Shown: positions 3,305-35,212 of the stretch, in pieces
Numbering within the stretch: the stretch's first letter is position 1
How the letters are laid out: every line of letters begins with the position of its first letter
Source of the DNA: a virus
Virus record (IMG/VR): IMGVR_UViG_3300006916_000135
Location: 1 to 36,652 of that record
Direction: 5' to 3' (one strand)
Length of the DNA: 36,652 nt
Program-made: the position numbers and the translations under genes
The notes under the pieces: model-generated
What the model saw: only the letters and a program-made list of their open reading frames with translations
What the model was told of the DNA's origin: nothing
The model's database searches: none

Positions 3305-3317
3305 GTTAACCCCCTGA

Positions 3318-4586: not shown

Positions 4587-4589
4587 TTC

Positions 4590-4618
4590 TTGACATCTCC
4601 CCCAAATTCGAGTATAAT
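4590..4618 (+). promoter_or_regulatory. Sigma70-type promoter P2 for the ligase N-terminal gene
   Basis: TTGACA (4590-4595), 17 bp, TATAAT (4613-4618), with the shared upstream TAGTTC and downstream AT. The start codon of the ligase gene is at 4625, exactly 7 nt after the last base of the -10 box, where transcription should begin. The transcript is predicted to start with the AUG itself (fully leaderless). Confidence 0.9.
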
Positions 4619-4624
4619 ATACTC

Positions 4625-5569
4625 ATGTTAGAAAATTACCTACGCAGATGCCGAATTGCGTATTACAATGGCAAACCAATCATACCTGATGATGTCTATG
4701 ACAGACTGACTGAAGGCACGATTTTTGACCAAGAAGTTGGTGATGGCACAAATGCTCGAATACAGCACGCCTATCCAATGTATTCGCTACAGAAGTGTTT
4801 CGTAGGTGAGCAACTTATATCGTATGATAGTGTAACAGTAAATACTCCCAAGCTAGATGGTGCGGCAGTATCTATTCTCTATCTACGAGGTGAATTTCAA
4901 CGAGCCTTAACTCGAGGTGATGGTAAGCGTGGTATCGACATATCGGACAAAATGCGTTTCCTTGTTCCAACTTCGTTACCATATTTCATTGACGAAGACA
5001 GGCTAGTTCAAATCACAGGAGAAGTAGTTGCTCCTAAAGAAATTCCAAATGCAAGAAACTATGCGGCGGGTGCACTCAATCTAAAAGACTTAGATGAGTT
5101 TCAAAATCGTGACCTCACATTTATTGCATACGGAGTCCAACCATACTTTACGGAAAGTTGGACACATGACTTAGAGATCCTCGATAAGTGTGGATTTCAG
5201 CATGTCATGTTGAGTGAATACAATATGTTTCCTCACGATGGCAGAGTTGTAAGAGTAGACGCCTATGATGAATTTGATAAACTTGGCTACACACAACACC
5301 ATCCAAGAGGAGCATATGCGCTTAAAGATAGATCAGAAGGAACTATTACTAAACTACTAGATGTCGTATGGCAAGTCGGTAAGTCTGGTGTAGTTAGTCC
5401 TGTTGCTATCTTAGAGCCTTGTGTAATCGGTGGAGCGACAGTACAAAGAGCAACATTACATAACATGGGTTTCATTGACGAACTCGAACTTGAAATCGGG
5501 TGTGATGTTGAAGTTATAAGAAGTGGAGAAATTATCCCAAGAATAGTTAGGAGAGTAAATGGATCTTGA
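4625..5569 (+). CDS. ligA: NAD-dependent DNA ligase, N-terminal half (Ia, adenylation, OB)
   Basis: This 314-residue protein is the front part of a LigA-type ligase. Residues 9-28 match the NAD-binding Ia segment (R-x-x-YYNGKP...D-x-x-YDRL), 48-56 the H-x-x-PMxSL motif (HAYPMYSLQ), K76 in KLDG is the adenylated lysine, RGDGKRG lies at 97-103, TGEV at 131-134, ARNYAAG at 143-149, and WQVGKSGVVSPVA leads into an OB fold ending at 314. The zinc finger, HhH and BRCT domains are absent; they are encoded separately at 9322-10098. Together the parts total 572 residues against 671 in E. coli LigA. Separate A and B ligase subunits are known in phage T5, so this is probably a functional split rather than decay. 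Its own leaderless promoter supports expression. Confidence 0.92.
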   Translation: MLENYLRRCRIAYYNGKPIIPDDVYDRLTEGTIFDQEVGDGTNARIQHAYPMYSLQKCFVGEQLISYDSVTVNTPKLDGAAVSILYLRGEFQRALTRGDGKRGIDISDKMRFLVPTSLPYFIDEDRLVQITGEVVAPKEIPNARNYAAGALNLKDLDEFQNRDLTFIAYGVQPYFTESWTHDLEILDKCGFQHVMLSEYNMFPHDGRVVRVDAYDEFDKLGYTQHHPRGAYALKDRSEGTITKLLDVVWQVGKSGVVSPVAILEPCVIGGATVQRATLHNMGFIDELELEIGCDVEVIRSGEIIPRIVRRVNGS

Positions 5570-5804
5570 CAAACTAAAAGAAAAATTAACACAAGGAATT
5601 TGCCTTATTCAATTTGAGAGTGCAAATTCTGGTACTATTTATAAAAGAGAGTATACACTCTGTGAAAGACTAATGGATGTTCCAAATCATATTAAAAACT
5701 ATCAAGGAGATAATATTCTGTGCTATGATCTAGAGTTTAGAAAGTGGGAAGACATTAAACCAAATTCTATTCTAAACTGGAAGTTTTATGGAAAAGAAAC
5801 TTAA
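5559..5804 (+). CDS. Small SH3-barrel-like protein (DUF2693-like)
   Basis: The ATG at 5559 has AGGAGAG 5 nt upstream and lies within the end of the ligase gene. The 81-residue product shows KLKEKLTQGICLIQFES, a Tyr/Arg strand, then DNILCYDLEFRKWEDIKP and a final short strand, resembling the layout of DUF2693 SH3-like barrels (K-x-G-x-x-x-F...W/D...R/K-W-x-x-I/F). The protein at 3430 may be a distant relative. No function is established. It overlaps the next gene by 17 bp. Confidence 0.55.
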   Translation: MDLDKLKEKLTQGICLIQFESANSGTIYKREYTLCERLMDVPNHIKNYQGDNILCYDLEFRKWEDIKPNSILNWKFYGKET

Positions 5805-6346: not shown

Positions 6347-6873
6347 AGATAGAGAATTTTCTAACACAAGAAGAAAGTGAGTATCTTGTTAAAGTTATTT
6401 TAGATAAAGAACAGGAAGTTTTAAATATACCTAACCCATTAAAAAGTGCATATACTGGTCTAACTAGACAATATTCAGTTTTTAATTGGTTAAACACAAA
6501 AGAATTTAAAGTAATAGACTGGGAGCATAAGTTTACTAGACTTATTCCAGATCTATTATGTATTCAATGCTGGGCAAATGTTCTAAGAAAAAATGAATCT
6601 TTAGGATGGCACAGACACTCTCTCATCGAGAGTTTTCTTGTGGGAAATATATTCCTAGCGGGTGCACAGAACACAACAGAATATGAAGTAGGTTTAATTG
6701 AAAATAAAGTGGGAACTCTAGTATTAACTACATCAAAGATGAATCATGCAGTTCCTGTAAATAAGTACGAACAACCAAGAATATCACTAGCATTTGATAT
6801 TCATAATGAAGAATTTTATGATCCAAATAGATGGGTAATTTATGAGAAAAGAAGAACTGATAGCGTTAATTAA
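6292..6873 (+). CDS. 2OG-Fe(II) oxygenase-like protein
   Basis: This 193-residue protein begins at ATG 6292 with GGAGGA 8 nt upstream. A core of W-A-N-V-L-R-K (94-100), GWHRHSLIESFLVGNIFLAG (105-124), GTLVLTTSKMNHAVPV (141-156) and RISLAFDI (163-170) fits the double-stranded beta-helix of a 2OG-Fe(II) oxygenase of the H-x-H type, with His107/His109, His152 and Arg163 as likely metal and 2-oxoglutarate ligands. No canonical H-x-D pair is present at the first site, so activity is uncertain. It is upstream of the carbamoyltransferase and SGNH-like genes in the same unit, which suggests a modification pathway. Overlaps both neighbours. Confidence 0.6.
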   Translation: MFRNYEQYFKQISKEKLLEIENFLTQEESEYLVKVILDKEQEVLNIPNPLKSAYTGLTRQYSVFNWLNTKEFKVIDWEHKFTRLIPDLLCIQCWANVLRKNESLGWHRHSLIESFLVGNIFLAGAQNTTEYEVGLIENKVGTLVLTTSKMNHAVPVNKYEQPRISLAFDIHNEEFYDPNRWVIYEKRRTDSVN

Positions 6874-7075
6874 GGCATTACCTACAGAAGATACAAAAGG
6901 AGAAATAGTTGGAATATTTTACAACAGACATGGTGAGGTTTATACCACCGATAGTATCCGTATTGATATGGATGGGGGTAGAATTATACTGGCTCAACAG
7001 GGATCAGGTTATCACGAACTTAATAAAAAGAATTGGAAACAGGAATTAAAGTTTTATGAAATACAGGGGCATTAG
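6842..7075 (+). CDS. Small hypothetical protein
   Basis: This 77-residue protein starts 32 bp before the stop of the 2OG-type gene and ends inside the start of the carbamoyltransferase. It has an N-terminal helix (RKEELIALIKALP), then a strand-rich section with a Gly-Asn-Arg-His-Gly turn (IFYNRHGEVY) and a basic W-containing tail. No family recognised. The tight overlaps suggest translational coupling to the carbamoyltransferase. Confidence 0.6.
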   Translation: MRKEELIALIKALPTEDTKGEIVGIFYNRHGEVYTTDSIRIDMDGGRIILAQQGSGYHELNKKNWKQELKFYEIQGH

Positions 7076-8393
7076 TTCAGGCTTTCATGATGCCGCAGTT
7101 GCTTTTGTAAGTAACAATCAAATTACATTCGCTAGTCATAGTGAGAGATTCTCTCGCATCAAAAATGACAAGCATTTAGATCCAAAATTAGCACAATGTC
7201 ATAGCTTTGAAAAAACAGTTTTCTACGAAGATGTGGCACTTAAAAATCAAAGACGAGAGAAATTCAACATGGCTCCTGTAAAGGTTCCAGAATATCCTTT
7301 CGTCAAACATCACCAAAGTCATATGGCAGCAGGCTATTTTACCTGCCCATTCGATACTAAGGATGCAGTATGCGTTGTAATAGACGCTATTGGTGAATGG
7401 GATACTGTCACCATCTGGAAAGATGGAGTGAAAGTCTACAGTAGGCAGTATCCTTATTCGCTTGGACTATTCTATAGTGCAATTACTAAAAGAATAGGAT
7501 TGAAGCCAAATGAAGATGAGTACATAACAATGGGTATGGCAGCATTTGGAGAGCCAGTATTAGATCTAAAGTGGGTATGGTACCCACATTATAACTGGCA
7601 CAAAGGATTTAAGGTTGAAGATTTCAAAGGCGTTCATCCATATGATATCGCCGCATCTGCACAAGCTGAGTTAGAAAATGAACTTATGAGGATTATGCAG
7701 ATTGCAAAACAGTATGGAAAAGACTTAATTTATGGGGGCGGGGTCGCTCTCAACTGCGTGGCAAACGCTAAAATAAGAAACATGTTTAGGAATATGTGGA
7801 TATTTCCTAATCCTGGCGATGCTGGCAGTAGTCTTGGTGCAATATTATGCGAAACAAGACAACATATAGATTTTAAAGACTGCTTTCTTGGATATTTAAT
7901 TGATAATAGATTAAATCCTAGAGAAGTAGTTGATCATTTATTAAAACATAAAGTAGTAGGAGTTGCAAATGGAAGAGCTGAATTTGGTCCTCGTGCTTTG
8001 GGTAATCGCAGTTTGCTTGCTGATCCAAGGTATAGCGTTAAAGGAACTGTTAATAGGATAAAGAGAAGGCAACAGTTTAGACCTTTTGCACCTGCTATTT
8101 TAGCAGAATATTTTAACGATTATTTTTATGGAGAAGCAAATGAGTATATGCAGTATACTACAGTCGCTAAGCATGATTATTCGTCAGTCATACATGTGGA
8201 TGGAACAAGTAGAACACAGATCGTACGTCCATCGAATAACTCCAGATTGCGACTTATACTAGAAGAATTTTACGAAAGAACAGGATGTCCTATGTTACTA
8301 AACACAAGTTTGAATATTAAAGGTCAACCAATGGTAAATACATGGGAGGACGCACTAGAATTTGAAAAGAAATACGGAGTGAAAGTATTTTGA
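7056..8393 (+). CDS. O-carbamoyltransferase, NodU/CmcH/TobZ family
   Basis: This 445-residue protein belongs to the carbamoyltransferase family that transfers a carbamoyl group from carbamoyl phosphate, via carbamoyl-AMP, to a hydroxyl. Visible signatures: an N-terminal actin/Kae1-like start GISSGFHDAA (5-14), the metal-binding H-x-x-x-H in KHHQSHMAAG (His85, His89), GGGVALNC (227-234), PGDAGSSLGA (253-262), and GRAEFGPRALGNRS (306-319) of the C-terminal YrdC-like-related domain. It is shorter than well-studied members (about 570 residues). It is followed, with a 4-bp stop/start overlap, by an SGNH hydrolase-like gene. Phage carbamoyltransferases have been proposed to act on modified bases or on glycans; the acceptor here is unknown. 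Confidence 0.9.
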   Translation: MKYRGISSGFHDAAVAFVSNNQITFASHSERFSRIKNDKHLDPKLAQCHSFEKTVFYEDVALKNQRREKFNMAPVKVPEYPFVKHHQSHMAAGYFTCPFDTKDAVCVVIDAIGEWDTVTIWKDGVKVYSRQYPYSLGLFYSAITKRIGLKPNEDEYITMGMAAFGEPVLDLKWVWYPHYNWHKGFKVEDFKGVHPYDIAASAQAELENELMRIMQIAKQYGKDLIYGGGVALNCVANAKIRNMFRNMWIFPNPGDAGSSLGAILCETRQHIDFKDCFLGYLIDNRLNPREVVDHLLKHKVVGVANGRAEFGPRALGNRSLLADPRYSVKGTVNRIKRRQQFRPFAPAILAEYFNDYFYGEANEYMQYTTVAKHDYSSVIHVDGTSRTQIVRPSNNSRLRLILEEFYERTGCPMLLNTSLNIKGQPMVNTWEDALEFEKKYGVKVF

Positions 8394-9145
8394 TCTATTG
8401 GAATGGATGTAGCTTTGTAAAAGGTTATGAACTCACAGAGAAGAATAGTAACTTTGTAAATAAAGTATCTGAGCATTTTAATCAAGAGTTTGTAAATGAT
8501 GCTAAAGTAGGTGGATCAAATGATAGAATCTACCGAACAACGATAGAGTATTGTTTAAAAAATAAACCAGATTTAGTAGTTATTATGTGGTCTGGTATTA
8601 ATCGCCAAGAGTATTTAATGCGAATGGAAAATACTTGGCGACAAATGAATTGGTCAAATTGGTACTGTAATTTAAAAACAGGACTCACAGATGTAACAAG
8701 ATCAGTTCTTCATCACCACCCTGGCGTTACAGATACCGAACAAGAAGTTCTACAAGGATGGGCAAAGTTTAAAAGTGTAAAGTATAACCTAAAAACTACT
8801 TTAAATTACATGATAGGACTAAAATATTTTTTACAAGCTAAAAACATTCCTTATCTTTATTATAACTTTTCTGATGGGCAGTATAAGCCTTTCTTTAAGT
8901 TTTTAGATGAAGAATACTTCGAAGCTGCAAATATCATATGGAGTCCTACTGTTACTCTTACTAGAGAAGACTACTTAGTAGAACTTCCACATCTTACAGA
9001 AAAGATAGGAATGTATGACTTTACACTAAAACATGGATACAAGATGGGTCGAAGAGATCATCCTCTTGAAGATGCTCATCAAGCATATGGTGAGTACATA
9101 ATTAAGGACATTTACGATAATGAATATGATAAAATCTTGGTTTAA
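8390..9145 (+). CDS. SGNH/GDSL hydrolase-like protein
   Basis: The 251-residue frame starts with TTG overlapping the stop of the carbamoyltransferase (TTGA). The layout matches an SGNH hydrolase: block I WNGCSFVKGYEL (4-15) with Ser8 as candidate nucleophile, a Gly-containing block GGSNDRIYR (41-49) where Asn would stabilise the oxyanion, a strand PDLVVIMWSG (60-69) and a C-terminal DHP-x-x-x-AH-x-x-x-GEYI in which Asp and His complete a triad. Members are esterases or acetyl/acyl transferases acting on carbohydrates. Its tie to the carbamoyltransferase suggests both work on the same glycan or small molecule. The fold is likely; substrate unknown. Confidence 0.72.
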   Translation: MIYWNGCSFVKGYELTEKNSNFVNKVSEHFNQEFVNDAKVGGSNDRIYRTTIEYCLKNKPDLVVIMWSGINRQEYLMRMENTWRQMNWSNWYCNLKTGLTDVTRSVLHHHPGVTDTEQEVLQGWAKFKSVKYNLKTTLNYMIGLKYFLQAKNIPYLYYNFSDGQYKPFFKFLDEEYFEAANIIWSPTVTLTREDYLVELPHLTEKIGMYDFTLKHGYKMGRRDHPLEDAHQAYGEYIIKDIYDNEYDKILV

Positions 9146-9321: not shown

Positions 9322-10098
9322 TTGAGAGAAATTATACCACCGACAAGTTGCCCCGCATGTGACTCTGTTCTTGAGTTAGTCAATGAACAGTTGTTCTGCA
9401 GGAACTACGCTTGTCCTGAACAGTGGGATAAAAAGTTGTCTCATTTTGCTTCCACTCTAAAAATCAAAGGACTTGGTCCTGCAACTATTGAAAAGTTGCA
9501 AGTTTTGGATTATCCAGAACTGTATGAGTTATCTGTTGATGACTTAGTTGATAGAATAGGATCTGAGAAACTGGCAAGTAAATTGTTTGACGAAATACAA
9601 AAGTCTAAAAGCGTTAGCTTGCAAGAATTACTGCCAGCTTTCTCTATCAGTTTAATCGGTCAATCGGCTTCTCAAAAATTATGCGATAGTATCACATCTG
9701 TCGATGAGATATCAGAGACTACTTGTGTAGAAGCGGGCATTGGTCCGAAAGCGACTGCTAATCTATTGTCTTGGTTAGAAACAGAGTTCAAACCCAACAA
9801 ATACAGAGACTCATTACCTTTCAACTGGAAAGTTAAGAAAGTAAATAAAATAGAAAAGGTTCAAGGAGTTGTCTGCATTACTGGTAAGTTGAAAAGCTAT
9901 CCGACTAAGGCTCATGCAGAACAAGTTCTCAAAAATTTCGGATTTATAACTAAACCCAGTCTGACTAAAGACTGCACTCACTTAGTAAATGAGAGTGGAA
10001 TTGAGTCAGCCAAAACACAGACAGCTCGGGAACGAGGTGTCATAATAATAACAAACATTAGACATTTAATAGAGGAAAACACAAATGGCATTACCTAA
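9322..10098 (+). CDS. ligB: NAD-dependent DNA ligase, C-terminal half (zinc finger, HhH, BRCT)
   Basis: This 258-residue protein supplies the domains missing from the 4625 gene: a four-Cys zinc finger (Cys10, Cys13, Cys26, Cys31), tandem helix-hairpin-helix motifs (IKGLGPATIEKL at 48-59 and a second around 105-150), and a C-terminal BRCT domain (about 177-250, with GVVCITGKL and THLVN). In LigA these parts grip nicked DNA, while the other half does the adenylation chemistry. The start is TTG 9322 with GAGAGAG upstream. The name ligB follows the subunit-B convention used for split phage ligases. It overlaps the next gene by 14 bp. A functional two-subunit ligase is inferred. Confidence 0.9.
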   Translation: MREIIPPTSCPACDSVLELVNEQLFCRNYACPEQWDKKLSHFASTLKIKGLGPATIEKLQVLDYPELYELSVDDLVDRIGSEKLASKLFDEIQKSKSVSLQELLPAFSISLIGQSASQKLCDSITSVDEISETTCVEAGIGPKATANLLSWLETEFKPNKYRDSLPFNWKVKKVNKIEKVQGVVCITGKLKSYPTKAHAEQVLKNFGFITKPSLTKDCTHLVNESGIESAKTQTARERGVIIITNIRHLIEENTNGIT

Positions 10099-15200: not shown

Positions 15201-17445
15201 GAGTATACCAACAAGTACAGATTTTAACAAGTATCTTGACTTCGACTTTGATCGTTTTGCACTTTGCAGCGACAGTAGTAAGAAGAAGATACTAAAACGA
15301 GATGTCGATATTGAAATCAATATTGACGATTATGAATGGCTAGTCCTAGTGGGGTCAGAGCCTTTCAAACAATTTACACGCAAGTCTTCAATCACCGAAT
15401 ACAATGGAAAAGTAATTGACGAGAAATTTCTCGGTCTAATCAATCCTGCAATGATTCGATTTAAACCTGAAGCCAAGAAAAGTTTTGAAGAAGCCATCGA
15501 GAGTATCAATGGATATGTCTCTGGTGCGCTAAAAATAGAGAAGTTAGACAATGATAAATGTTATGGGATCACAGATCCAGAAAGTGCTAAAAAGTTTATA
15601 TCAGATGCCATCAAAGCTCCTTACGACTTTGTGGCAATGGACTCAGAGACGTCCGCCCTATATCCAAGAGATGGTTATATGCTTGGTGTGTCTCTTAGCT
15701 ATGAACCTGATCATGGTTGCTACATTCACGCTGACTGCATAGATAGCGAAGTAGAGAAACTTCTACAGGAGTTATTTAACACGAAGAAAGTAGTATTTCA
15801 CAATGCCAAGTTTGATATTGCATGGTTTGAGTATCACTTTGGATTTAAGTTTCCTCGTTTTGAAGACACCATGCTCATGCACTATATGTTCAACGAGAAT
15901 CCTGGCAATCACGGACTAAAAACTCTTGCTATGAAACACACTCCCTATGGGGACTATGAAAAAACACTTGAAGATTGGTCAGAAACTTATCGTAGACAAA
16001 ATGGTATTCTAAAAGATGACTTTGATTATAGCATGATACCATTCGATGTCATGAAGGACTACGCGGCAATGGATGCCGTAGTTACGTTCCTTTTATATCA
16101 AAAAATGTCTGCAGCACTGGTCAAGAACGAAAAACTATACGGCGTCTACACAAATATTTTATTAGAAGGTTGTAGATTTTTGCTCGACATTCAAGATAAC
16201 GGAGTGCCGTTTGACAAAGAAAGACTGGTTGAAGCACAGAGTATCATGTCGAAGCAGATTGATGAAGCAGTGGAAACACTACAGAAACACCCAGCTGTCC
16301 AGCAGTTTATAAAGGACAAAGGTGCTTTCAATCCCAATAGTACTTTACAGTTAAGAGAGTTGTTATTTGATTATGTAGGGCTAGCCCCAACGGGTAAGAA
16401 AACTGGCACGGGTGCAGATAGTACAGATGCGGAAGTTTTACAGACATTGGCAGAGGAGCATGAGATTCCTGGACTCATATTAGAGGTTCGTCAGAAAGTT
16501 AAGATCAAGAATACATATCTTGACAAGATTATTCCAAGTTTAGATCGTGATAGTCGGTTACGAACAAATTTCAATCTGCATGGCACGACTTCAGGGCGAC
16601 TCTCCAGTAGTGGAAAACTGAACATGCAACAGTTGCCTCGTGATAATCCCACCGTGAAAGGTTGCATCAAAGCTGCCGAAGGCAGCCAGATTGTTGCAAT
16701 GGACTTAACAACAGCAGAGGTTTATGTTGCTGCCGTTCTTTCACAAGATATCGGTCTGATGGAAGTGTTTCGATCAGGTGGAAACTTTCACAGTACGATT
16801 GCGAAACAAGTATTTAACCTACCCTGTGAGGTAGAGGATGTAGAGAAATTCTACAAAGAGAAAAGACAACAAGCAAAAGCTGTTACTTTCGGCATCATGT
16901 ATGGTGCTGGACCAAGCAAGATCTCTTGGCAGGTTACAAAGGACAGCGGACAAGAATTTACAGTAGGAGAAGCTACAAAAGTTATTAAAGATTACTTTGC
17001 TGCTTTTCCAAGATTAAAGAAGTGGTTAGATGACAATCAAAAATTTATTTCAGCAAATGCGTTTACTTACAGTATCTTCGGAAGAAAGAGACGATTGCCA
17101 GACGCAAAGTCACAGGACAAAGGAATTGCTTCTCATGCTGTTCGGAGCGGAATCAACTTTCTCGTTCAGTCTGTTGCCTCCGATATCAATCTACTGGGCG
17201 GTATCGACATGCAAAAGTATATTCAACGAACAGGCATGAAAGCAAAGATATTTGCATTGGTTCATGACTCCATACTTGCGGAAGTACCGAATGATGAAGT
17301 CGATCATTACAAAGAAAAACTCGCAGAATACATACAAATGGATCGTGGATGTACAATCCCAGGCTGTCCAGTTGGTTGTGACTTTGAAGTAGGTGAAGAT
17401 TATTCTATGGGAAAATTCACCGCATATTATGATAATACACAGTAG
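15181..17445 (+). CDS. polA: Family A DNA polymerase with 3'-5' exonuclease
   Basis: This 754-residue replicative polymerase resembles the T7 type: no 5' nuclease domain (that is a separate gene at 30200). Exonuclease motifs: Exo I D154-x-E156 (AMDSETSALYP), Exo II FHNAKFDIAWF (206-216), Exo III YAAMDAVVTF (294-303). Polymerase motif A is IVAMDLTTAEVYVAA (504-518) with Asp508 and Glu513; motif B RQQAKAVTFGIMYG (562-575) with Arg562, Lys566, Phe570 and Tyr574; motif C LVHDSILAE (693-701) with Asp696. Phe570 is the equivalent of E. coli Pol I Phe762. Motif A is atypical: the usual S-Q/G-x-E-L-R is T-T-A-E-V-Y. The ATG is 20 bp before the end of the previous gene. Confidence 0.95.
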   Translation: MKVALIESIPTSTDFNKYLDFDFDRFALCSDSSKKKILKRDVDIEINIDDYEWLVLVGSEPFKQFTRKSSITEYNGKVIDEKFLGLINPAMIRFKPEAKKSFEEAIESINGYVSGALKIEKLDNDKCYGITDPESAKKFISDAIKAPYDFVAMDSETSALYPRDGYMLGVSLSYEPDHGCYIHADCIDSEVEKLLQELFNTKKVVFHNAKFDIAWFEYHFGFKFPRFEDTMLMHYMFNENPGNHGLKTLAMKHTPYGDYEKTLEDWSETYRRQNGILKDDFDYSMIPFDVMKDYAAMDAVVTFLLYQKMSAALVKNEKLYGVYTNILLEGCRFLLDIQDNGVPFDKERLVEAQSIMSKQIDEAVETLQKHPAVQQFIKDKGAFNPNSTLQLRELLFDYVGLAPTGKKTGTGADSTDAEVLQTLAEEHEIPGLILEVRQKVKIKNTYLDKIIPSLDRDSRLRTNFNLHGTTSGRLSSSGKLNMQQLPRDNPTVKGCIKAAEGSQIVAMDLTTAEVYVAAVLSQDIGLMEVFRSGGNFHSTIAKQVFNLPCEVEDVEKFYKEKRQQAKAVTFGIMYGAGPSKISWQVTKDSGQEFTVGEATKVIKDYFAAFPRLKKWLDDNQKFISANAFTYSIFGRKRRLPDAKSQDKGIASHAVRSGINFLVQSVASDINLLGGIDMQKYIQRTGMKAKIFALVHDSILAEVPNDEVDHYKEKLAEYIQMDRGCTIPGCPVGCDFEVGEDYSMGKFTAYYDNTQ

Positions 17446-17941
17446 AAAATTAATCTTTATACACATTCCGAAATCGGGTGGAACAAGTATAAAAGAATCT
17501 CTTACAAGAGAGTGGAATCTTGATATACAGTTTGAAAAACTTAGTAATTTTCCGCCTTATATAGAGAAAGACGGATTACAGGCATGGCATTTTAATTACT
17601 GGGATGCCATAGATATTCATCCCGATTATGAATATATAACACAGGTTAGACACCCTGTGAATAGATGGGTAAGTTACTACAAGATGATACGAGAGTTTCA
17701 TAAAGAGCCGTACTCTTTTGAAGAATTTACAGATAAGTTTCTTGGAGTAAGATTTACAACACAACAGTTTAAATGGGTAGGTGAGTGCGAAGTACACCGC
17801 CTTGAAGATAGAACAATATGGAAACGATTGGGTATTCCAGAAAGAAAGGACAATGTAACAACTATTTCAGTTGAAGTATCACAATACCATAGACAAAAAA
17901 TAGAAGAATATTTTAAAGAGGATATGAAAAAATGGTATTAG
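17429..17941 (+). CDS. PAPS-dependent sulfotransferase
   Basis: This protein has the 5'-phosphosulfate loop FIHIPKSGGTS (10-20) and the 3'-phosphate motif VRHPVNRWVSYY (73-84), then HRLEDRTIWKRLGI and a C-terminal YFKEDMKKW, all typical of a Sulfotransfer_2-type enzyme. The frame is open from an ATG at 17393 inside the polymerase gene, but the ATG at 17429 puts the P-loop at residue 10, matching the next gene, and is preferred (170 residues, a short form). It overlaps the polymerase by 17 bp. The downstream gene is a second sulfotransferase, probably a tandem duplicate. Acceptor unknown. Confidence 0.82.
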   Translation: MIIHSRKLIFIHIPKSGGTSIKESLTREWNLDIQFEKLSNFPPYIEKDGLQAWHFNYWDAIDIHPDYEYITQVRHPVNRWVSYYKMIREFHKEPYSFEEFTDKFLGVRFTTQQFKWVGECEVHRLEDRTIWKRLGIPERKDNVTTISVEVSQYHRQKIEEYFKEDMKKWY

Positions 17942-18603
17942 AAGAGCTGAAAACTATATTTATACATATACCAAAGTGTGCAGGAACATCACTAGAGGAT
18001 AGTCTCACAAGAAGATATCCAGCTCTTGGAAATCAACAGATGTGGAACTATAAATTAGAATTTCCAGCAGTATGGCTATATAACTATTTTGTAGATCGTA
18101 CTATTTTAGTTTGTAATAAACATGCAAGAGCAGAAGATTATAGAAAAGCTGGATATGCAGGATATAGGCATGTAGCTCTAGTGAGGCATCCAGTAGCAAG
18201 ATGGGAAAGCATGTTTGGATTTCTCAAATGGAGAAAACTATTAAGTACAAAAATTACATTTGATGAATGGACTGAGAACGCTATATGGGCAATGAAATAC
18301 AATGAGCCAGATGGATTTATAGATAAAATAGAGTGGTGGAAATGGTTAAAACAGTTTCCAACTAATTTAGAGTATCAAGCCTTTATGTTGAAACAAGTAG
18401 ATTTTATTGATAGAGGAACGAGAATCTATCGACTCGAAGATGAGAAAGGAAAAGATGGGGGTATCTGGAAAGATCTAGACTGCTACCACTATCCTTCTCG
18501 TTCTTTACAGACTCCAAAGGAGTTAAAAGTAAAAGCAAATAAATTTATAACTAAAAAGATAGAAAATTATTTTAAGGAAGACTATGAAGAATTTGGATAT
18601 TGA
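17932..18603 (+). CDS. PAPS-dependent sulfotransferase (tandem paralogue)
   Basis: This 223-residue protein starts with an ATG 10 bp before the end of the preceding sulfotransferase. It contains FIHIPKCAGTS (10-20), VRHPVARWESMF (84-95), IYRLEDEKGK and the C-terminal YFKEDYEEFGY. The two tandem enzymes share the N-terminal loop and the Y-F-K-E-D ending but differ in the acceptor-binding middle, which suggests duplication followed by change of substrate. Together with 2431 and 3969 it makes four sulfotransferase-like genes in 16 kb. The donor (PAPS) is expected from the host. Target could be a glycan, lipid or protein tyrosine. Confidence 0.85.
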   Translation: MVLEELKTIFIHIPKCAGTSLEDSLTRRYPALGNQQMWNYKLEFPAVWLYNYFVDRTILVCNKHARAEDYRKAGYAGYRHVALVRHPVARWESMFGFLKWRKLLSTKITFDEWTENAIWAMKYNEPDGFIDKIEWWKWLKQFPTNLEYQAFMLKQVDFIDRGTRIYRLEDEKGKDGGIWKDLDCYHYPSRSLQTPKELKVKANKFITKKIENYFKEDYEEFGY

Positions 18604-18757
18604 GTGGTGGCATCACGACTGTCCTGATAGCGGACCGACTGATACACTGATAGGTCAAGACTGTAACTGGTGTGAGGCAAAAAGCCCAAGTATGTCACCA
18701 AAACAAGTCGAGTTATTAGAGAAGTGGATCTCTGATATAAGCGGGGGAATCGCATAA
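18584..18757 (+). CDS. 57-residue Cys/Trp-containing mini-protein
   Basis: A small gene with AAGGA (18575-18579) just upstream starts at ATG 18584, inside the end of the sulfotransferase. It encodes 57 residues beginning MKNLDIEWWHHDCPD, with DCNWCEAKSP later; Cys13, Cys27 and Cys30 plus His10/His11 could bind zinc. Its TAA overlaps the ATG of the next mini-gene (TAATG). No family recognised. The SD and the stop/start coupling support it as a real gene. Confidence 0.55.
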   Translation: MKNLDIEWWHHDCPDSGPTDTLIGQDCNWCEAKSPSMSPKQVELLEKWISDISGGIA

Positions 18758-18912
18758 TGTGTTATTTGATGTATCATACTGCATGTAAGAAGTGCGGAGA
18801 AGGTATGTATAGCTGCAAGTGTGAAGACGATAATGAATGGTTTGAAGTTGCAAAACAAATGAAAGAGGATATAAATGAATCTGAGCGACAGGGACACAAT
18901 AGTAACAGTTAG
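18757..18912 (+). CDS. 51-residue Cys-rich mini-protein
   Basis: This mini-gene overlaps the stop of the previous one (TAATG). The first half is Cys-rich: Cys2, Cys10, Cys13, Cys20 and Cys22 (HTACKKCGEGMYSCKCEDD), which looks like a small zinc knuckle; the second half is acidic and polar. It ends 37 bp into the QueC-like gene. Two successive Cys-rich mini-proteins ahead of an enzyme cassette are unusual. Function unknown; a metal-binding adaptor or, more speculatively, a peptide substrate of the downstream enzymes. Confidence 0.5.
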   Translation: MCYLMYHTACKKCGEGMYSCKCEDDNEWFEVAKQMKEDINESERQGHNSNS

Positions 18913-19561
18913 TGGAGGCTTTGAGTGCCTTGCTGCTTTATGGTGGTCTGTAAATAAAGGTTTAAAACCTGTTGGAGTTCATTTAAAAAATAATGTTCAT
19001 GGCAATACTGCAAAAGCTTCAGAGTACTGGGCTAGAAAGCAGTGTGAATATTTCAATGTGCCTCTCATAGTTGATGAAATTGAAATACCACAGAAAAATG
19101 CAATCAAGGTTGCAGTATTTCAATGGCAAAGTGCAATACTTCACTTACTTGCAGGCAACGAAAAAGTGGACTGGAAGTATATTGTATGGGGTGCAAATTC
19201 AGAGGATAGCTTTAGGCAGAGAGTTCAGCTAAGATATCCAAGTAAAATGATACAAATGTATCAAAGTGATGCAATAGATGCACACGGAATACACAAAAAA
19301 GTTTTATTGAATAGTCCAATAAACTTATTTCCATTTGAACATCTTACAAAATCAGAAATAGTAGGAATTATTGGCAGAATAGAGCCAAAAACATTAGATC
19401 TAGCTTTTTCTTGTGTAAGAGGTTATCAATTAGTAGAAGAATGGAAAATGTGTGAAAAATGTAATAAATGTGCTGAATGGCAACTTGCTAAACAAATAGC
19501 AGGTCAAGCAAAATTCAGAGTACAAGAAGGATTTGATTATGGCGCTAGTTTCGGTAGTTAA
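18875..19561 (+). CDS. QueC/ExsB-like PP-loop protein with altered ATP motif
   Basis: This 228-residue protein matches QueC (7-cyano-7-deazaguanine synthase) in overall order: N-terminal PP-loop strand (TIVTVSGGFECLA, 8-20), a SP...PFEHLTKSEI segment (147-161), and a C-terminal four-Cys zinc site (Cys180, Cys193, Cys196, Cys199; AFSC...MCEKCNKC). QueC uses ATP and ammonia to turn a carboxylate into a nitrile. The normal PP-loop S-G-G-x-D-S is here S-G-G-F-E-C (13-18), so the ATP chemistry may be changed. No other preQ0 genes (folE, queD, queE) are in the window. QueC-like proteins also occur in non-queuosine contexts such as QatC. It opens an enzyme cassette. Confidence 0.75.
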   Translation: MNLSDRDTIVTVSGGFECLAALWWSVNKGLKPVGVHLKNNVHGNTAKASEYWARKQCEYFNVPLIVDEIEIPQKNAIKVAVFQWQSAILHLLAGNEKVDWKYIVWGANSEDSFRQRVQLRYPSKMIQMYQSDAIDAHGIHKKVLLNSPINLFPFEHLTKSEIVGIIGRIEPKTLDLAFSCVRGYQLVEEWKMCEKCNKCAEWQLAKQIAGQAKFRVQEGFDYGASFGS

Positions 19562-20084
19562 ACATTGGAACGAGTTAACAAAAGATGAACTGTATAGAAT
19601 TATACAGTTAAGAATTGACGGCTTTATAGTTAGAAATAAAGTCTGTTACCAAGATTTGGAGTATTATTACGATGAAAGTCAGGTATATTTTATGTGGTAC
19701 GATACTGTACTGGGCATTGCTCCTCAGCTTATGGTCGGTACAAACTCCTTGTGCGACAGAAAAGTGTTCGTTGGAGACGATGGAACAGAATACAGATATC
19801 CTGCATTCCGCCGACAGGCATGGGAACGAAGCTACAAAGGTGGTTGCTCCACACGTGATCTAATATTAGGTCGAGAAGTAGCAATTAAATATTGGGGTAG
19901 TCCTAACATGATGTTAGAGATTACATATGAAGGTGGTAAACAACCATTTTTGGATTTTGGATGTAAAGAAGTAGGAACAAATGTAGATCCTGCTGGTAGA
20001 GTGAACTGGGTGTTCGTATATGAAGAAAAAAATTTTAAAAATAAAATCGCCTCTGAATTTAGACAAGTATCTAGCAATAGCTAA
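19539..20084 (+). CDS. Putative GNAT-like protein
   Basis: The ATG at 19539 has AAGGA 8 nt upstream; a TTG at 19533 is less likely. The 181-residue product begins with HWNELTKDELYRIIQLRIDGF (partly resembling the ElaA-type GNAT N-terminus, L-x-x-x-E-L-Y-x-x-L-x-L-R) and a YDES...YFMWYD strand, and has a conserved-looking STRDLILGREVAIKYWGSP core. The later half does not show a clear acetyl-CoA loop (R/Q-x-x-G-x-G/A), so acetyltransferase activity is only a suggestion. It overlaps the QueC-like gene by 23 bp and the 2OG gene by 65 bp. Alternative: a novel phage family. Confidence 0.6.
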   Translation: MALVSVVKHWNELTKDELYRIIQLRIDGFIVRNKVCYQDLEYYYDESQVYFMWYDTVLGIAPQLMVGTNSLCDRKVFVGDDGTEYRYPAFRRQAWERSYKGGCSTRDLILGREVAIKYWGSPNMMLEITYEGGKQPFLDFGCKEVGTNVDPAGRVNWVFVYEEKNFKNKIASEFRQVSSNS

Positions 20085-20529
20085 GATCAATCAATACAAG
20101 GCGCATCAGTATTTTCATAAAGACGGAGAACTGATAAATGGATATAAGTATTTTCACTGGATGGAGCCAGAACTAAGAGATTTTGTACATGATCTAGGAC
20201 TAGAAAATTTTCAATGGTCATGGAGATTTGTTTATATAGCTCCTAATACAGAATTACCAATACATAGTGATAAAGGTACTCGATGTGCAGTAAACTTTGT
20301 TTTAACAGGTAAATACCCAATACAGTGGGTAATTGATGAAGGTACACGAGAATTAAATATGTATGAAACTGCAATTCTCGATGTAACTCAACCACATTTT
20401 GTACAGACAGGATGGAATGAAAGAATACTACTAAAGCTGTCTTTTTTAGACGCAGGATTTGAAGAGGTATGTGAAGCATGGTACAATTTCCAATCTTTGC
20501 AATCCACACAGCTGATGTCGACACTATAG
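20020..20529 (+). CDS. 2OG-Fe(II) oxygenase / aspartyl hydroxylase-like
   Basis: This 169-residue protein has a clear facial-triad pattern: H82-x-D84 in ELPIHSDKGTRCAVNF, His126 in VTQPHFVQTG, and Arg135 in ERILLKLSF, on a jelly-roll of strands (FVYIAPNTELP; YPIQWVIDEG). This is the layout of small 2-oxoglutarate oxygenases of the aspartyl-beta-hydroxylase kind. It oxidises an unknown substrate, probably one handled by the neighbouring radical SAM, amidotransferase and glycosyltransferase genes. The start overlaps the previous gene by 65 bp, the longest overlap seen here; no later ATG precedes the core. Third oxygenase of this fold in the window. Confidence 0.7.
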   Translation: MKKKILKIKSPLNLDKYLAIAKINQYKAHQYFHKDGELINGYKYFHWMEPELRDFVHDLGLENFQWSWRFVYIAPNTELPIHSDKGTRCAVNFVLTGKYPIQWVIDEGTRELNMYETAILDVTQPHFVQTGWNERILLKLSFLDAGFEEVCEAWYNFQSLQSTQLMSTL

Positions 20530-20945
20530 ACGGCATCACTTGGATAGAGGATCAAGTACTAGACGATAAAAATATGAGTGGAGAAACACTAGGACTTCGT
20601 CGTTTACAAACTCCAATGAAAAGTATTTATCCACTTAAAATAATGCTAGAAGATGAAGTAGCACTAATGAAGCACCATGGCAAGCATTATATAGATAATT
20701 ATGGTAAAGTCTTCACCTATGTAAAGACTAAAAATGTAAGATTAACTTACTTAAGAATTGCTAGAGTAGTACCAAAAGATATCTGCTCTATAGTGTGGGT
20801 AAAGGATGTACCTTTCCCATTTGAAGAAAAAAGACCTTTGCCACGAGAGGCAAAGTGGGCAGGAGTATTATATAAAAGTGGTATTCCTTGGAAAATTTAC
20901 GAATATACAACAGAAAAGAAAAAGGATACATACAGAAAGTGTTAA
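20478..20945 (+). CDS. Hypothetical protein, unknown family
   Basis: This 155-residue protein overlaps the oxygenase by 52 bp. It contains DDKNMSGETLGLRRL (about 29-43), a HYIDNYGKVFTYVKTK segment (70-85) and a series of beta strands (TYLRIARVV; CSIVWVK), and ends in a Pro/Lys-rich tail. I have a vague sense of similar proteins in marine myoviruses, but cannot name a function. There is no signal peptide. Being inside the cassette, it may bind or present the substrate, but nothing in the sequence shows it. Confidence 0.6.
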   Translation: MVQFPIFAIHTADVDTIDGITWIEDQVLDDKNMSGETLGLRRLQTPMKSIYPLKIMLEDEVALMKHHGKHYIDNYGKVFTYVKTKNVRLTYLRIARVVPKDICSIVWVKDVPFPFEEKRPLPREAKWAGVLYKSGIPWKIYEYTTEKKKDTYRKC

Positions 20946-21742
20946 TACTAATAAACATAGACGTAACAGGACTATGTAACGAAACATGTAATTATTGTCC
21001 TCGTAGTCATGGGTATCCTAATACAAAAGACTATATGTCTGTTGAGTTATTTCAAAAGTTTGTAAATGATGTAAACGCAGAAGGATTTACTGGACATATT
21101 TGTTGGTCTGGTAGAGGAGAAAATAGTTTACATCCAAAGTTTGAAGAAATGGTGAAAATATTACATCATTCAAATAGAAAATATAAAACTCGTATTCTAA
21201 CAAATGGGTACAAGTTAAAGCAGCGTAAGTGGTTATTCAAAAGATTTGATAATGTAATTATGAATACCTATACGCATAGAGGTGATTTTCAATGGCGCAA
21301 AGAGTATTTTACTCATACAATGGCTGGACATCCAGTGCAACACCGCTTTTGGGATCAAAGTGTAAAACCAGAGGAGTGGGCAGTCACTCCAATACAGGTT
21401 CAAAATAGAATAGAAGTTTACAAAGGAATTATTGCTACAGATAATCCAGCGATAAACCTGCCATGTAGCCTACCAGCTACAAAAGCATGGATACACTGGG
21501 ATGGTACAATTCAGTTATGTTGTAATGACTGGACTGATACAAATATATTCGGCAACATTAAAGATGATAATATTTTTGAGGTTTGGCGTACACATCCTAA
21601 ACTACGAGAAATGAGAGAAAATCTAATGAAAGGAAATAGATCTCTATATAACGTATGCTCACGATGCAACAAAAAACATTCTAAACTTGAACATCATAGA
21701 TGGAGAATAATAAATGAAAATAATCAGTTATTACACACCTAA
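20939..21742 (+). CDS. Radical SAM enzyme with SPASM-like domain
   Basis: The N-terminal C-x3-C-x2-C motif (Cys13, Cys17, Cys20 in GLCNETCNYCPRS) binds the 4Fe-4S cluster that splits S-adenosylmethionine. The C-terminal part has the SPASM/twitch pattern: PCSLP, WIHWDGTIQLCCNDW, GNIKDDNIFEVW and CSRCN, with Cys at about 176, 194, 195, 240 and 243 that can hold an auxiliary cluster. SPASM enzymes modify peptides, sugars or other substrates. The frame is open from TTG 20888; GTG 20939 places the cluster motif at residue 13, usual for the family, and is preferred (267 residues). It sits between the 2OG oxygenase region and a glycosyltransferase. It lacks queE-like compactness. Confidence 0.85.
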   Translation: MLILINIDVTGLCNETCNYCPRSHGYPNTKDYMSVELFQKFVNDVNAEGFTGHICWSGRGENSLHPKFEEMVKILHHSNRKYKTRILTNGYKLKQRKWLFKRFDNVIMNTYTHRGDFQWRKEYFTHTMAGHPVQHRFWDQSVKPEEWAVTPIQVQNRIEVYKGIIATDNPAINLPCSLPATKAWIHWDGTIQLCCNDWTDTNIFGNIKDDNIFEVWRTHPKLREMRENLMKGNRSLYNVCSRCNKKHSKLEHHRWRIINENNQLLHT

Positions 21743-22262
21743 TTACGCAGGTGTAGCAAATAGGCTCAAACAATCATTAGAAAAATTTGGGCAAGATTAC
21801 TATATGGAACATATAGACGATCAAGGCAGTTGGGAAGAAAACTGCGGATATAAACCTAAGTTTATCTTAGAGTGTATGGAAAAGTTTGATGAAGATTTAT
21901 TTTGGTTGGATGCAGATGCTGAACTTCTTAGAAAACCTACTTGGAAAGAGTTTGAAGATGATAAGAAAATAGGTGCACATGCTCATTTTCACAAACAAAT
22001 GCAGAAATGGGAATTACTTAGTGGTAGTCTGTATCTACCGAATACTGAAATAAATAGAATGATTATTAAAGGATGGCACAATCATCAGAAAAATAATCCA
22101 ATGGCGTGGGATCAACGAACACTCTCTGAAATACTTAATTCTATACCAGATAGCGAAAATAACTGGTTTGTAATGGATAATAAATGGTGTTTTATAAAAG
22201 GAATTATGGAATGTAATGATCCTATCATGTATCACTATCAGGAATCAAGAAATAAAACATAA
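21714..22262 (+). CDS. GT-A type glycosyltransferase-like protein
   Basis: This 182-residue protein has a short nucleotide-sugar transferase fold: an opening strand MKIISYYTPNYAGVANRLKQ (1-20), a DEDLFWLDADAELLRKP segment (59-75) with the D66-x-D68 metal motif, and a later GSLYLPN...WHNHQ and WDQRTLSEIL region typical of small phage glycosyltransferases that start with a M-K-x-I-S-Y-Y motif. The acceptor is unknown. Start overlaps the radical SAM gene by 29 bp; the stop overlaps the AsnB start (TAATG), so the two are coupled. Confidence 0.75.
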   Translation: MKIISYYTPNYAGVANRLKQSLEKFGQDYYMEHIDDQGSWEENCGYKPKFILECMEKFDEDLFWLDADAELLRKPTWKEFEDDKKIGAHAHFHKQMQKWELLSGSLYLPNTEINRMIIKGWHNHQKNNPMAWDQRTLSEILNSIPDSENNWFVMDNKWCFIKGIMECNDPIMYHYQESRNKT

Positions 22263-23770
22263 TGTGCGGATTTGTAGGAACAACTAGACATCATTTAGCT
22301 AAGCCAATGTTGGAAAAGCAGGAATTTCGTGGTCCAGACGGAATGTGGTTTTGGAAAAATGAACACCTTGCTTTAGGACATGCTTTGCTAGATATAAATG
22401 GTGAAGCACAAATACAACCTTTTCATATGTCAAATGGAGACAAATTAGTTTTCAATGGAGAAATGTATAATAGTCCATATGCAAATGATACAAAATTTTT
22501 AGCAAGTGGACTAATGAAATATGGCTATGACTTTCTGCGTTTAAATGACTGGCATGGATCTATAGCATGGTATAAAATAAAAGAAGCAAAAGTTGTCCTT
22601 ATACGAGATCATTTTGGAAGTAAACCATTATGGTATAAACATGAAGGCAAAACTTTTGAATTTGCAACTTCACTAAGAAGTTTCGAAAAGAAAGAGTTTA
22701 TTGATTATTATAATCATTTTATAGTATCTTTTCAATGGATGGGAGAATTTTCACCATATAAACTAATTGATAAAGTAGCTGCTGGACAGATTATAGAGTA
22801 TGACTTTAACAAAAATCGAGTAACAAAACGAAGTTTGTGGGATGGATTTATTGTAGGAAGTAGAGGTTTTGAAACAAATATATTTAGAGGTATGCTTATT
22901 GACTCTATTGTTAAGACTGCTCGCACAAAACAAAAAGTAGGATTATTTCTTAGTGGTGGTTTTGATAGTACAATGGTACTAAGTATTGCTAGAAAATTAG
23001 ATATAGACTTAAATGTCTATACAATAAATTATGAGAAAGCACCAGGAAATCACTGGAGTCATAATTCTTTTTATGAAGAAAGTGAGCTTGCAAGAAAAAC
23101 TTGTGAAGAATGGAATATACCTCTTAAGGTAGTAGAATTAAAAAGAGACGAAAGAGTTCACCTAAGTAGATTATGGTTAAATAAAACTCATTTTCCTTGG
23201 GGAGATATGAATAGAGTAGCTCCTCGTTATTTACTTGCTAGAGCCGCTGCAGAAGATAATTGTAAAGTTATTTTAACAGGTGATGGGGGCGATGAATTAT
23301 TTAGTGGATACAATCATCATAATAAAAGATTTCAAGAAGGATATAATGAAGAATCTATGAAAAGAATGAGAGAACAAAATCCATGGTTTCCTAGTGCAGC
23401 ATTTAGTCATGATGTGAAAAATAATGGACTATTTATAGACCTTCTTACTACTTGTGAACAAAATGTATTAGCAGCAGATCAAACTATCGGAATGTTCGGT
23501 ATGGAATCTAGACCTTGCTTACTTACACAGAATTTTGCTAAGTTTACATTATCTATAGCAAGTAATATCAAGTTTAAACAGTGGAAAGATTTTCGTGCTG
23601 GAACAACAAAATGGTTAATGAGGCATGTTATGCGGGATTATCTACCTAAGCATATCACTCAGAGAAAAATGAAAATGGGGTGGTCAAGTCCGTGGGATAA
23701 TAACCATCCAGAAGTGCAAACCGATTGGTTAGCACAAGATATAGAATTTTTAAAAGCGATTATAAAGTGA
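22262..23770 (+). CDS. Asparagine synthase family glutamine amidotransferase
   Basis: This 502-residue protein has both parts of AsnB. The Ntn glutaminase half starts at the nucleophile Cys2 (MCGFVG), with RGPDG (23-27) and FNGEMYN (64-70). The synthetase half has the PP-loop SGGFDST (231-237) and TGDGGDELFSGY (339-350). It would move ammonia from glutamine to an adenylated carboxylate. In biosynthetic gene clusters and O-antigen loci this family amidates sugars or peptides rather than free aspartate; the cassette context favours that here. The PP-loop is intact, unlike in the QueC-like neighbour. The next gene starts with GTGA at its stop. Confidence 0.9.
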   Translation: MCGFVGTTRHHLAKPMLEKQEFRGPDGMWFWKNEHLALGHALLDINGEAQIQPFHMSNGDKLVFNGEMYNSPYANDTKFLASGLMKYGYDFLRLNDWHGSIAWYKIKEAKVVLIRDHFGSKPLWYKHEGKTFEFATSLRSFEKKEFIDYYNHFIVSFQWMGEFSPYKLIDKVAAGQIIEYDFNKNRVTKRSLWDGFIVGSRGFETNIFRGMLIDSIVKTARTKQKVGLFLSGGFDSTMVLSIARKLDIDLNVYTINYEKAPGNHWSHNSFYEESELARKTCEEWNIPLKVVELKRDERVHLSRLWLNKTHFPWGDMNRVAPRYLLARAAAEDNCKVILTGDGGDELFSGYNHHNKRFQEGYNEESMKRMREQNPWFPSAAFSHDVKNNGLFIDLLTTCEQNVLAADQTIGMFGMESRPCLLTQNFAKFTLSIASNIKFKQWKDFRAGTTKWLMRHVMRDYLPKHITQRKMKMGWSSPWDNNHPEVQTDWLAQDIEFLKAIIK

Positions 23771-33948: not shown

Positions 33949-34598
33949 AAATCTTTATAGGATATGATAGTGAACACCCCGAAGCATACGAAGTATGTAA
34001 GGCAAGTATTTTAAAACATAATCCTTTACATGAGATACATCCTTTAATTAATAAGAAATTGAGAAAGAAAGGACTCTATGACAGACCAAAACACTTAATG
34101 GAAAGTACAGAGTTCTCCTTTACTCGATTTCTAGTTCCTTTGTTATGTAACTACACAGGGCGCGCACTCTATTGTGATGGAGATTTTCTTTGGAGATGTG
34201 ATCCTCAAGAACTTACACATCATATGAATGATGAAGATGTTGCAGTAGTAAAACATCCAAAGTTTAGTATAAAAACTAAAAAGATGAAAAATAAAGGAAA
34301 TGCAGATTACGATATGAAATATTGGAGTAGTTTGATGTTCTTTGATTGTGCAAAATGTGATAGTTTAACAAAGTGGTATGTGAGTAATGCTCATGCTGCA
34401 CACTTACATGGCTTTTCATGGGCTAGTAAGATAGGCAGCATCCCAGCAAGTTTTAATGCACTTGTTGGATATTACGACTTTGGTAAAAAATATACAAAAG
34501 CCGTCCACTTTACAGATGGCGGACCGTGGCTAGAAGGCTACGAAAACGTGGAGTTTGCAGACGAATGGTTTCAGATAAAATCAGAAATAAGTCAGTAA
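33945..34598 (+). CDS. GT8-like glycosyltransferase
   Basis: This 217-residue protein has the glycosyltransferase family 8-like arrangement: MKIFIGYDSEHPEAYEVCKASI (a D-x-x-x-x-A strand start, 1-22), SFTRFLVPLL (58-67), the metal-binding ALYCDGDFLW (74-83; Asp78-Gly-Asp80), and a later HLHGFSWASKIGSIPASFN region with the nucleotide and acceptor contacts. AAAGGAG precedes the ATG. It belongs to the glycan-related cluster at the right end with a GT29-like gene and, on the minus strand, a capsule-type transferase. Acceptor unknown. Confidence 0.82.
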   Translation: MKIFIGYDSEHPEAYEVCKASILKHNPLHEIHPLINKKLRKKGLYDRPKHLMESTEFSFTRFLVPLLCNYTGRALYCDGDFLWRCDPQELTHHMNDEDVAVVKHPKFSIKTKKMKNKGNADYDMKYWSSLMFFDCAKCDSLTKWYVSNAHAAHLHGFSWASKIGSIPASFNALVGYYDFGKKYTKAVHFTDGGPWLEGYENVEFADEWFQIKSEISQ

Positions 34599-35212
34599 TT
34601 CTAGTAGGAAACTCTGTCGAGTTATTAGAGTATGAATATGGAGACTATATAGAATCCTTTGATATAATAGTAAGATTCGGCAGAGGTATTCCTCGCCCAG
34701 ATATTTATAAATCAGTTGGAAAACGAACTGATATCTGGATTACTGGATTTTTGAGAGCAAACTTTCATCCACACTTTCCTACCGCACTGAAACTTCTTAA
34801 TCGGTGCAGAATACACTTAAATAAAAAACCTACTCGAGAAATAGTTTTCGATCACGAAGTAATGTACTCAGATGATGAGTTAATGCTTATATTTGAAGAA
34901 TTTGGTTGTAAAAACGGAGATGCAAATGCGTTGCGACCAAGTGCTGGTTATATGGGTGTTCATTATTTTGTGAATAAAATGAACATGTGGAAAAACTTAA
35001 ATCTAATAGGTTTCGACTTTTTTCAAAAGAAACTTCCATGGAAACTAGGACAGGACTATCCTTCAAGTTGGCATTTACCAGAGAATACAATACAGAGAAG
35101 TCCACATGCAAAAGATAAAGAACGAGAAATCGTTAGTCAGTGGAACGAGAAAGGAATACTAAATTGGAAAATACTTTCTGATTTGAAAGAAGAATTAATA
35201 GACTTTTCCTAG
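34565..35212 (+). CDS. GT29 (sialyltransferase-like) protein
   Basis: This 215-residue protein has an opening nucleotide-binding strand SVILVGNSVELLE (10-22) and FDIIVRFGRGI (32-42), the layout of sialylmotif L, and a later RPSAGYMGVHYF with the S-motif Ser-Ala-Gly, as in GT29-like proteins of phages and marine bacteria. The frame is open from GTG 34526, but ATG 34565 gives a start 10 residues before the nucleotide strand and is preferred. It overlaps the previous gene by 34 bp. Its stop (35210-35212) overlaps the 3' end of a minus-strand gene by 18 bp. A sialic acid-specific role is not shown. Confidence 0.75.
   Translation: MVSDKIRNKSVILVGNSVELLEYEYGDYIESFDIIVRFGRGIPRPDIYKSVGKRTDIWITGFLRANFHPHFPTALKLLNRCRIHLNKKPTREIVFDHEVMYSDDELMLIFEEFGCKNGDANALRPSAGYMGVHYFVNKMNMWKNLNLIGFDFFQKKLPWKLGQDYPSSWHLPENTIQRSPHAKDKEREIVSQWNEKGILNWKILSDLKEELIDFS

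Follow-up and report, generated by a model that had tools for sequence, protein, structure and literature searches.

The viral DNA analysed here, a 36.7-kb IMG/VR record (IMGVR_UViG_3300006916_000135; 36,652 nucleotides) referred to as the window, is the T5-like replication module of a marine siphophage. A 104-kb IMG/VR contig (IMGVR_UViG_3300025889_000083; G001) represents the same phage, with 99.8% identity across the 20.7 kb shared by the two. It should be noted that the records compared in this study are metagenomic and possibly incomplete. The polymerase and helicase of the window are 44% and 42% identical, respectively, to their counterparts in T5-like phages (Demerecviridae), and the T5 gene order is kept, with a split NAD-dependent ligase, DnaB, primase, polA, a 165-amino acid (aa) open reading frame (ORF), helicase, SSB and SbcCD; a flap nuclease is likewise shared. 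The window differs from this module in having enzyme cargo which, when set against T5-like phage IrisVonRoten, lies in two gaps, namely those between the ligase subunit genes (ligA-ligB) and between polA and the helicase gene. The ligase gap holds a GIY-YIG-like gene, 2-oxoglutarate (2OG) oxygenase genes, a NodU/TobZ-type carbamoyltransferase gene and a DUF6071 gene. Within the polA-helicase gap, two sulfotransferase genes are followed by the enzyme island outlined in a preliminary description of this DNA. The nine ORFs named there, from 18584 to 23770, were all found where it had placed them, each overlapping the next.

To investigate the island in related phages, loci were collected by scanning with the AsnB-like protein (42 loci) and with the protein encoded at 20478 (73 loci), and co-occurrence was scored in 61 complete polA-helicase intervals. 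The genes followed a fixed order with no violations: sulfotransferase, QueC-like, GNAT, 2OG-like, T5-type ORF, radical S-adenosylmethionine (SAM), glycosyltransferase and AsnB. The QueC-like and GNAT genes were jointly present in 28 intervals and jointly absent from 31, with two intervals holding a single member, and the QueC-like gene was never found without AsnB. As AsnB and the 20478 protein were the means by which the loci were found, co-occurrence counts for these two are partly conditioned, whereas the QueC-like/GNAT counts are unaffected. The median interval measured 5.96 kb with AsnB and 0.64 kb (642 bp) without it, the latter holding the T5-type ORF or little more and thus resembling the arrangement of the T5-like phages. 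The entire island was present in identical order on an 11.3-kb contig (L041), with protein identities of 28–72%.

The QueC-like, GNAT, radical SAM and AsnB genes gave dN/dS values of 0.12–0.14, showing that the island enzymes are under purifying selection, and the 86 full-length AsnB proteins fell into 32 clusters at 90% identity. The distances of the QueC-like and GNAT proteins were strongly correlated (r = 0.77), but within the island only to the same degree as either was with the backbone genes, which points to vertical co-inheritance and is no proof of interaction. The enzyme set is not a chance assembly; it is old, ordered and strongly conserved. The proposal of a coherent biosynthetic set in the preliminary description is therefore borne out by order and co-occurrence in relatives, and the scattering without co-occurrence that would have spoken against it was not found in this synteny comparison. 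Nor is the set indivisible: AsnB/2OG, QueC-like/GNAT and the radical SAM gene behave as separable modules across the relatives. Phage isolates were also searched, and tblastn of 50,697 phage records with the QueC-like, 20478 and GNAT proteins as queries gave zero matches.

The QueC-like protein of the window matched Pfam QueC with an E-value of 7e-4, below the cut-off, and the PHROG annotated as 'QueC-like' with 3e-7, while a relative with 48% identity (L105) passed the Pfam cut-off (2.6e-7). Its AlphaFold model (pLDDT 87.8) matched Cap9-CdnD (TM score 0.60/0.74) and QueC (0.65/0.67), with Cap9 in the NDG-modified complex as the best structural match. These model comparisons confirm membership of the QueC fold superfamily, with a predicted HUP/PP-loop fold and a C-terminal Cys4 subdomain. 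Like QueC, QatC, Cap9 and WbpG/WbuX, the phage family has the common fold, PP-loop position and Cys4 site; the zinc site C(x)8CxxCxxC of QueC takes the variant form C-x12-CxxCxxC in the window, its four cysteines being invariant among 39 aligned members. It differs from them in its P-loop, which reads [SG][GA]GxE instead of SGGxDS in 39/39 members with E17 invariant, and in the absence from this alignment of the YxQxHxxE, VPxRN and YPDC motifs (canonical definitions in PMC13329287). The replacement of SGGxDS by SGGxE, together with the missing canonical motifs, makes the family a new branch of the superfamily, and among the clusters described in the 2026 family map none was reported with an SGGxE P-loop (PMC13329287). 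Lacking SGGxDS, the family also falls outside QatC and Cap9. PADLOC assigned no defence-system membership, returning a weak QueC match alone (E-value 0.002), and the best NCBIfam hit for the window protein, which at 6e-5 fell well short of the cut-off, was to WbuX, an N-acetyl-sugar amidotransferase.

The partner of this gene, at 19533, encodes a protein for which sequence searches gave no match. Its structural model matched 1xeb best (TM score 0.69/0.84, E-value 1.6e-8) and also matched ElaA and AAC(2')-Ia, which confirms a modelled GNAT fold and leads to a prediction of acyl-CoA binding and amine acylation.

When the radical SAM profile was compared with the PDB, the closest match was BtrN (1.2e-18, full length), the 2-deoxy-scyllo-inosamine dehydrogenase of butirosin, which oxidises 2-deoxy-scyllo-inosamine (PMC9012708). 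Cysteines C30, C34 and C37 (CxxxCxxC) and those of the auxiliary cluster (C193, C211, C257 and C260) are invariant, have BtrN spacing and align with those of BtrN, as does an NR pair. Sequence identity to BtrN is low, and the phage gene sits with QueC-like and GNAT genes outside any antibiotic cluster. The protein is BtrN-like and is predicted to oxidise an aminocyclitol or sugar. It scored far below the cut-off for every peptide-maturase model.

In the AsnB-like protein, the Cys2 nucleophile and the RGPD, NGE, SGGxDS and GD..DE motifs are all present in the alignment, leaving both active sites intact. The glycosyltransferase-like protein matched PF03407 with 0.03 in the window and 3e-4 in a relative, with invariant DxD and WDQ motifs. 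For the protein at 20020, profile library searches gave no match; an HxD...H...R-type motif is present in the window protein and in most of its closer relatives and is lost in others, and a 2OG oxygenase identity is plausible. Of the identities assigned in the preliminary description, those of the QueC-like, GNAT (through the fold models), radical SAM/SPASM and AsnB proteins were upheld, while the glycosyltransferase is weakly matched and the 2OG oxygenase is recognised by its motif. The 20478 gene had been counted as a member of the pathway. Its family hidden Markov model matches the 165-aa ORF between polA and helicase of phage IrisVonRoten (8e-10) and the gene is kept in phages without any of the enzymes, so that it is a replication backbone gene; a role as pathway enzyme was rejected, no enzyme match being found.

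The limits of the unit, previously drawn at 18584–23770, also had to be revised, as the sulfotransferase genes and the carbamoyltransferase/DUF6071 pair of the ligase gap belong to it as well. Sulfotransferase genes stand at the island start in 17/64 relatives having polA and helicase. The two Cys-containing mini-ORFs had been described together with the cassette; they are not conserved alongside the enzymes, and counterparts were found at no locus of the relatives examined. The carbamoyltransferase has both Carbam_trans_N and C domains, matches novobiocin carbamoyltransferase (1e-45) and TobZ in the PDB, and was found in 8/10 related records. The adjoining DUF6071 gene is its constant neighbour in relatives, and a reading of its motifs suggests an SGNH-like protein. 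Approximately 25 relatives, found via the radical SAM gene, have a trio of GNAT, radical SAM and QueC-like genes at the ligase site beside the carbamoyltransferase, and in one phage (G003) there are two QueC-like/GNAT pairs, one per cargo site. In a tree of QueC-like proteins, those of the trio type, from the island and the ligase site alike, clustered together and apart from those of radical-SAM-free islands; support was moderate (90/91) and the branches were long. The branch of the window protein is itself long, which leaves its exact placement unsure.

Table 1. Coordinates in the window of the cargo genes, the split ligase and the T5-type ORF
Feature	Position	Strand	Basis or remark
NAD-dependent DNA ligase, split in two genes as in T5-like phages	4625-5569 and 9322-10098		cargo genes between
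WYL_2-like small protein	5559..5804	+	adjoins AsnB in relatives, in ligase gap here
NodU/TobZ-type carbamoyltransferase, ligA-ligB gap	7056..8393	+	Pfam 4e-49 and 6e-36
DUF6071 protein, SGNH-hydrolase-like by motif reading	8390..9145	+	Pfam DUF6071 4.6e-9
Sulfotransferase (Sulfotransfer_2), first of two, island start	17393..17941	+	Pfam PF03567 E=2.8e-9
Second sulfotransferase-like protein	17932..18603	+	phrog_3347 (galactose-3-O-sulfotransferase) 4e-8; PF03567 0.0019, below cut-off
Two Cys-containing mini-ORFs, 57 and 51 aa, lineage-specific	18584-18757, 18757-18912	+	ORF calls
QueC-fold PP-loop ATPase-like enzyme, SGGxE replacing SGGxDS, Cys4 site	18875..19561	+
GNAT-fold N-acyltransferase (predicted), partner of QueC-like gene	19533..20084	+
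2OG-Fe(II)-oxygenase-like protein	20020..20529	+	HxD...H...R motif only
T5-type replication-module ORF, backbone gene inside island	20478..20945	+	phrog_4386 2.4e-8
BtrN-like radical SAM twitch/SPASM enzyme	20888..21742	+	Pfam 8e-9 and 2e-11
Small GT-A type glycosyltransferase-like protein	21714..22262	+	weak PF03407; DxD and WDQ
AsnB-like glutamine-dependent amidotransferase	22262..23770	+	Pfam 2.9e-38

A number of further observations were made in these genomes. There appears to have been a swap of cargo between the two sites, with the WYL_2-like gene in the ligase gap and the trio beside AsnB in the window, and the reverse in relatives. On a marine single-cell virus contig (L035; MH319727.1), carbamoyltransferase and two SGNH-like genes lie together at 1598–7211 with genes that look like an amidinotransferase and a sulfotransferase, the last two labels being given by reading alone. 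On the minus strand of the 104-kb contig, a CHASE2-adenylate/guanylate cyclase (Pfam 4e-33 and 4e-21), FecR (6e-12), a weak curlin-repeat protein and a CsgG curli-secretion pore (1e-50) are encoded next to one another at 77766–82441, and a NifU/IscU Fe-S scaffold gene (Pfam 7e-37) adjoins a small IscA/HesB-looking ORF without Pfam match at 83097–84074. NifU-type genes also occur within the enzyme island of two other loci (L079, 6144–6536; L082, 6549–7163).

It is proposed, with somewhat better than even confidence, that the region at 17.4–23.8 kb, lodged between the DNA polymerase and D10-type helicase genes of T5-like marine phages, is an island of cargo passed on by vertical descent, and that its enzymes form a pathway which tailors an unusual sugar or glycan; the reactions, product and acceptor are predictions. 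This interpretation was preferred because, for several steps, the closest known enzymes use sugars or aminocyclitols as substrates, and because the genes required for known 7-deazaguanine or hydroxymethyl-pyrimidine DNA and signs of a peptide product are missing. The sugar-type relatives comprise BtrN, the novobiocin-sugar and TobZ carbamoyltransferases, AAC(2')-Ia among the GNAT folds, Sulfotransfer_2 and, weakly, WbuX, with glycosyltransferase-like proteins and one GT29-like protein in addition. An APS-kinase-type gene is included in the island of L041, and in a further locus (L205) a heptose-1-P adenylyltransferase-type gene lies immediately after AsnB.

In the proposed pathway, the BtrN-like enzyme would act on an amino- or carboxy-sugar by oxidising one of its hydroxyls. 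A carboxylate (or carbonyl) would be activated by the QueC-like enzyme at the expense of ATP so that nitrogen can be attached, and the GNAT partner of this enzyme would acylate an amine. AsnB would transfer the amide of glutamine to a carboxylate, for example that of a uronic acid, and the glycosyltransferase would attach the sugar unit, which the 2OG-like, sulfotransferase, carbamoyltransferase and SGNH-like enzymes may decorate. The acceptor would be a surface glycan of phage or host. One possible acceptor is a fibre-like protein of 761–1063 aa, consisting of 47–52% Thr and Ser and with a conserved N-terminus, which was found in the 104-kb contig and in four other large genomes (G003, G005, G006 and G007). 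In all five (34487–40610 in the 104-kb contig) the fibre adjoins a conserved block with glycosyltransferase-like genes, among them the GT29-like gene at 34526–35212 of the window.

Several points weigh against this proposal. Neither the window nor its 104-kb relative yielded a recognisable sugar-nucleotide dehydratase or synthase, so that the pathway would have to rely on host sugar nucleotides. Fold does not reveal what radical SAM, GNAT or PP-loop enzymes act on, and the identities given to the glycosyltransferase, 2OG and SGNH proteins are weak or motif-based. An anchor for function is also lacking on the bacterial side, as scans of genome contigs with conserved peptide patterns, which distant relatives may escape, revealed no bacterial relatives of the QueC-like and radical SAM genes. 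Finally, the position of the island amid replication genes would fit DNA modification too.

Such a modification would be a hypermodified nucleobase, in which the QueC-like, AsnB, GNAT and radical SAM enzymes build an amide-bearing base that the carbamoyltransferase caps, in the manner of the 5-carbamoyloxymethylcytosine made by some phages. QueC itself is a 7-deazaguanine enzyme, and a phage carbamoyltransferase acting on 5-hydroxymethylcytosine is known (PMC8670742) which belongs to the same superfamily as that of the window and has the same Carbam_trans_N and C pair. However, the window phage differs in having no thymidylate synthase/hydroxymethylase homologue (PF00303) in its 104-kb genome, a record that is possibly incomplete, and the carbamoyltransferases on unmodified contigs in the MetaGPA study adjoin glycosyltransferases (PMC8670742). 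Neither QueD (PTPS) nor TGT/DpdA was found in 10 related records, the radical SAM gene is BtrN-like and not QueE, and the canonical QueC motifs are missing. On these grounds 7-deazaguanine DNA was rejected, as was 5-carbamoyloxymethylcytosine DNA for want of a dCMP hydroxymethylase, and a modified base in general is considered unlikely, though it is the most probable of the alternatives. Next in rank, and also improbable, is a loose set of auxiliary genes that work independently, whether in nitrogen or cofactor metabolism or as morons, and have only an insertion hotspot in common. AsnB/2OG do occur without QueC-like/GNAT, some islands lack the radical SAM or glycosyltransferase gene and IscU occurs whether or not the radical SAM gene is present, but the near-complete joint occurrence of QueC-like and GNAT, their pairing at two sites in one phage, the constant company of AsnB and the unchanged gene order all argue for a set.

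The least probable alternative is modification of a peptide or protein, either as a ribosomally synthesised and post-translationally modified peptide with the mini-ORFs as precursors or as an N-terminal nucleobase conjugation similar to that of Cap9 (CBASS)/QatC, perhaps as counter-defence. Peptide maturation is a frequent role of SPASM/twitch radical SAM enzymes and the Cap9 complex is the top structural match of the QueC-like model, but the radical SAM profile leads to BtrN instead of peptide maturases, the Cap9/QatC motifs are not present and no leader-binding domain was seen. The two mini-ORFs as precursors were rejected, since precursor conservation beside the radical SAM gene was not found. 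A hypermodified nucleotide, a sugar for a surface glycan and a modified peptide had all been offered as products in the preliminary description; the sugar is the best supported and the other two are less likely.

Sugar or glycan tailoring has a known counterpart in the glycan cluster of cyanophage S-SCSM1, which encodes a carbamoyltransferase, GDP-mannose dehydratase, GDP-fucose synthase, glycosyltransferases and asparagine synthase. The two share a phage AsnB and NodU-type carbamoyltransferase accompanied by glycosyltransferases, methyltransferases and 2OG proteins. They differ in that the AsnB proteins are approximately 23% identical, tblastn of the cluster region found no QueC-like/GNAT pair or BtrN-like gene, the genomic place is another one, and the sugar-nucleotide enzymes present in S-SCSM1 were not recognised in the window phage. 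The earlier statement that no phage system with this combination has been described holds in so far as no paper on this gene set was found in the open-access literature, but related glycan clusters that include AsnB and carbamoyltransferase have already been recorded in cyanophages.

While phage glycan-tailoring genes are already known, the pathway proposed here is old, ordered and strongly conserved, and across many marine phages it occupies two set places in the T5-like replication module. It includes a branch of the QueC superfamily that is absent from the 2026 map, is tied to GNAT and has no close bacterial relative found. As a more speculative and rather doubtful extension, the SGGxE QueC-fold enzyme and its obligate GNAT partner may form a new, phage-only two-enzyme activity, in which ATP-dependent nitrogen attachment is followed by N-acylation and to which the AsnB, BtrN-like and carbamoyltransferase modules are added to yield an unseen sugar coating the Thr-rich fibre or the infected cell. 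If confirmed, the pathway would represent a new type of ATP-dependent reaction and a phage-made glycan, and it would account for the role of several genes labelled 'QueC-like', 'asparagine synthase' or 'carbamoyltransferase' that are widespread in ocean viromes.

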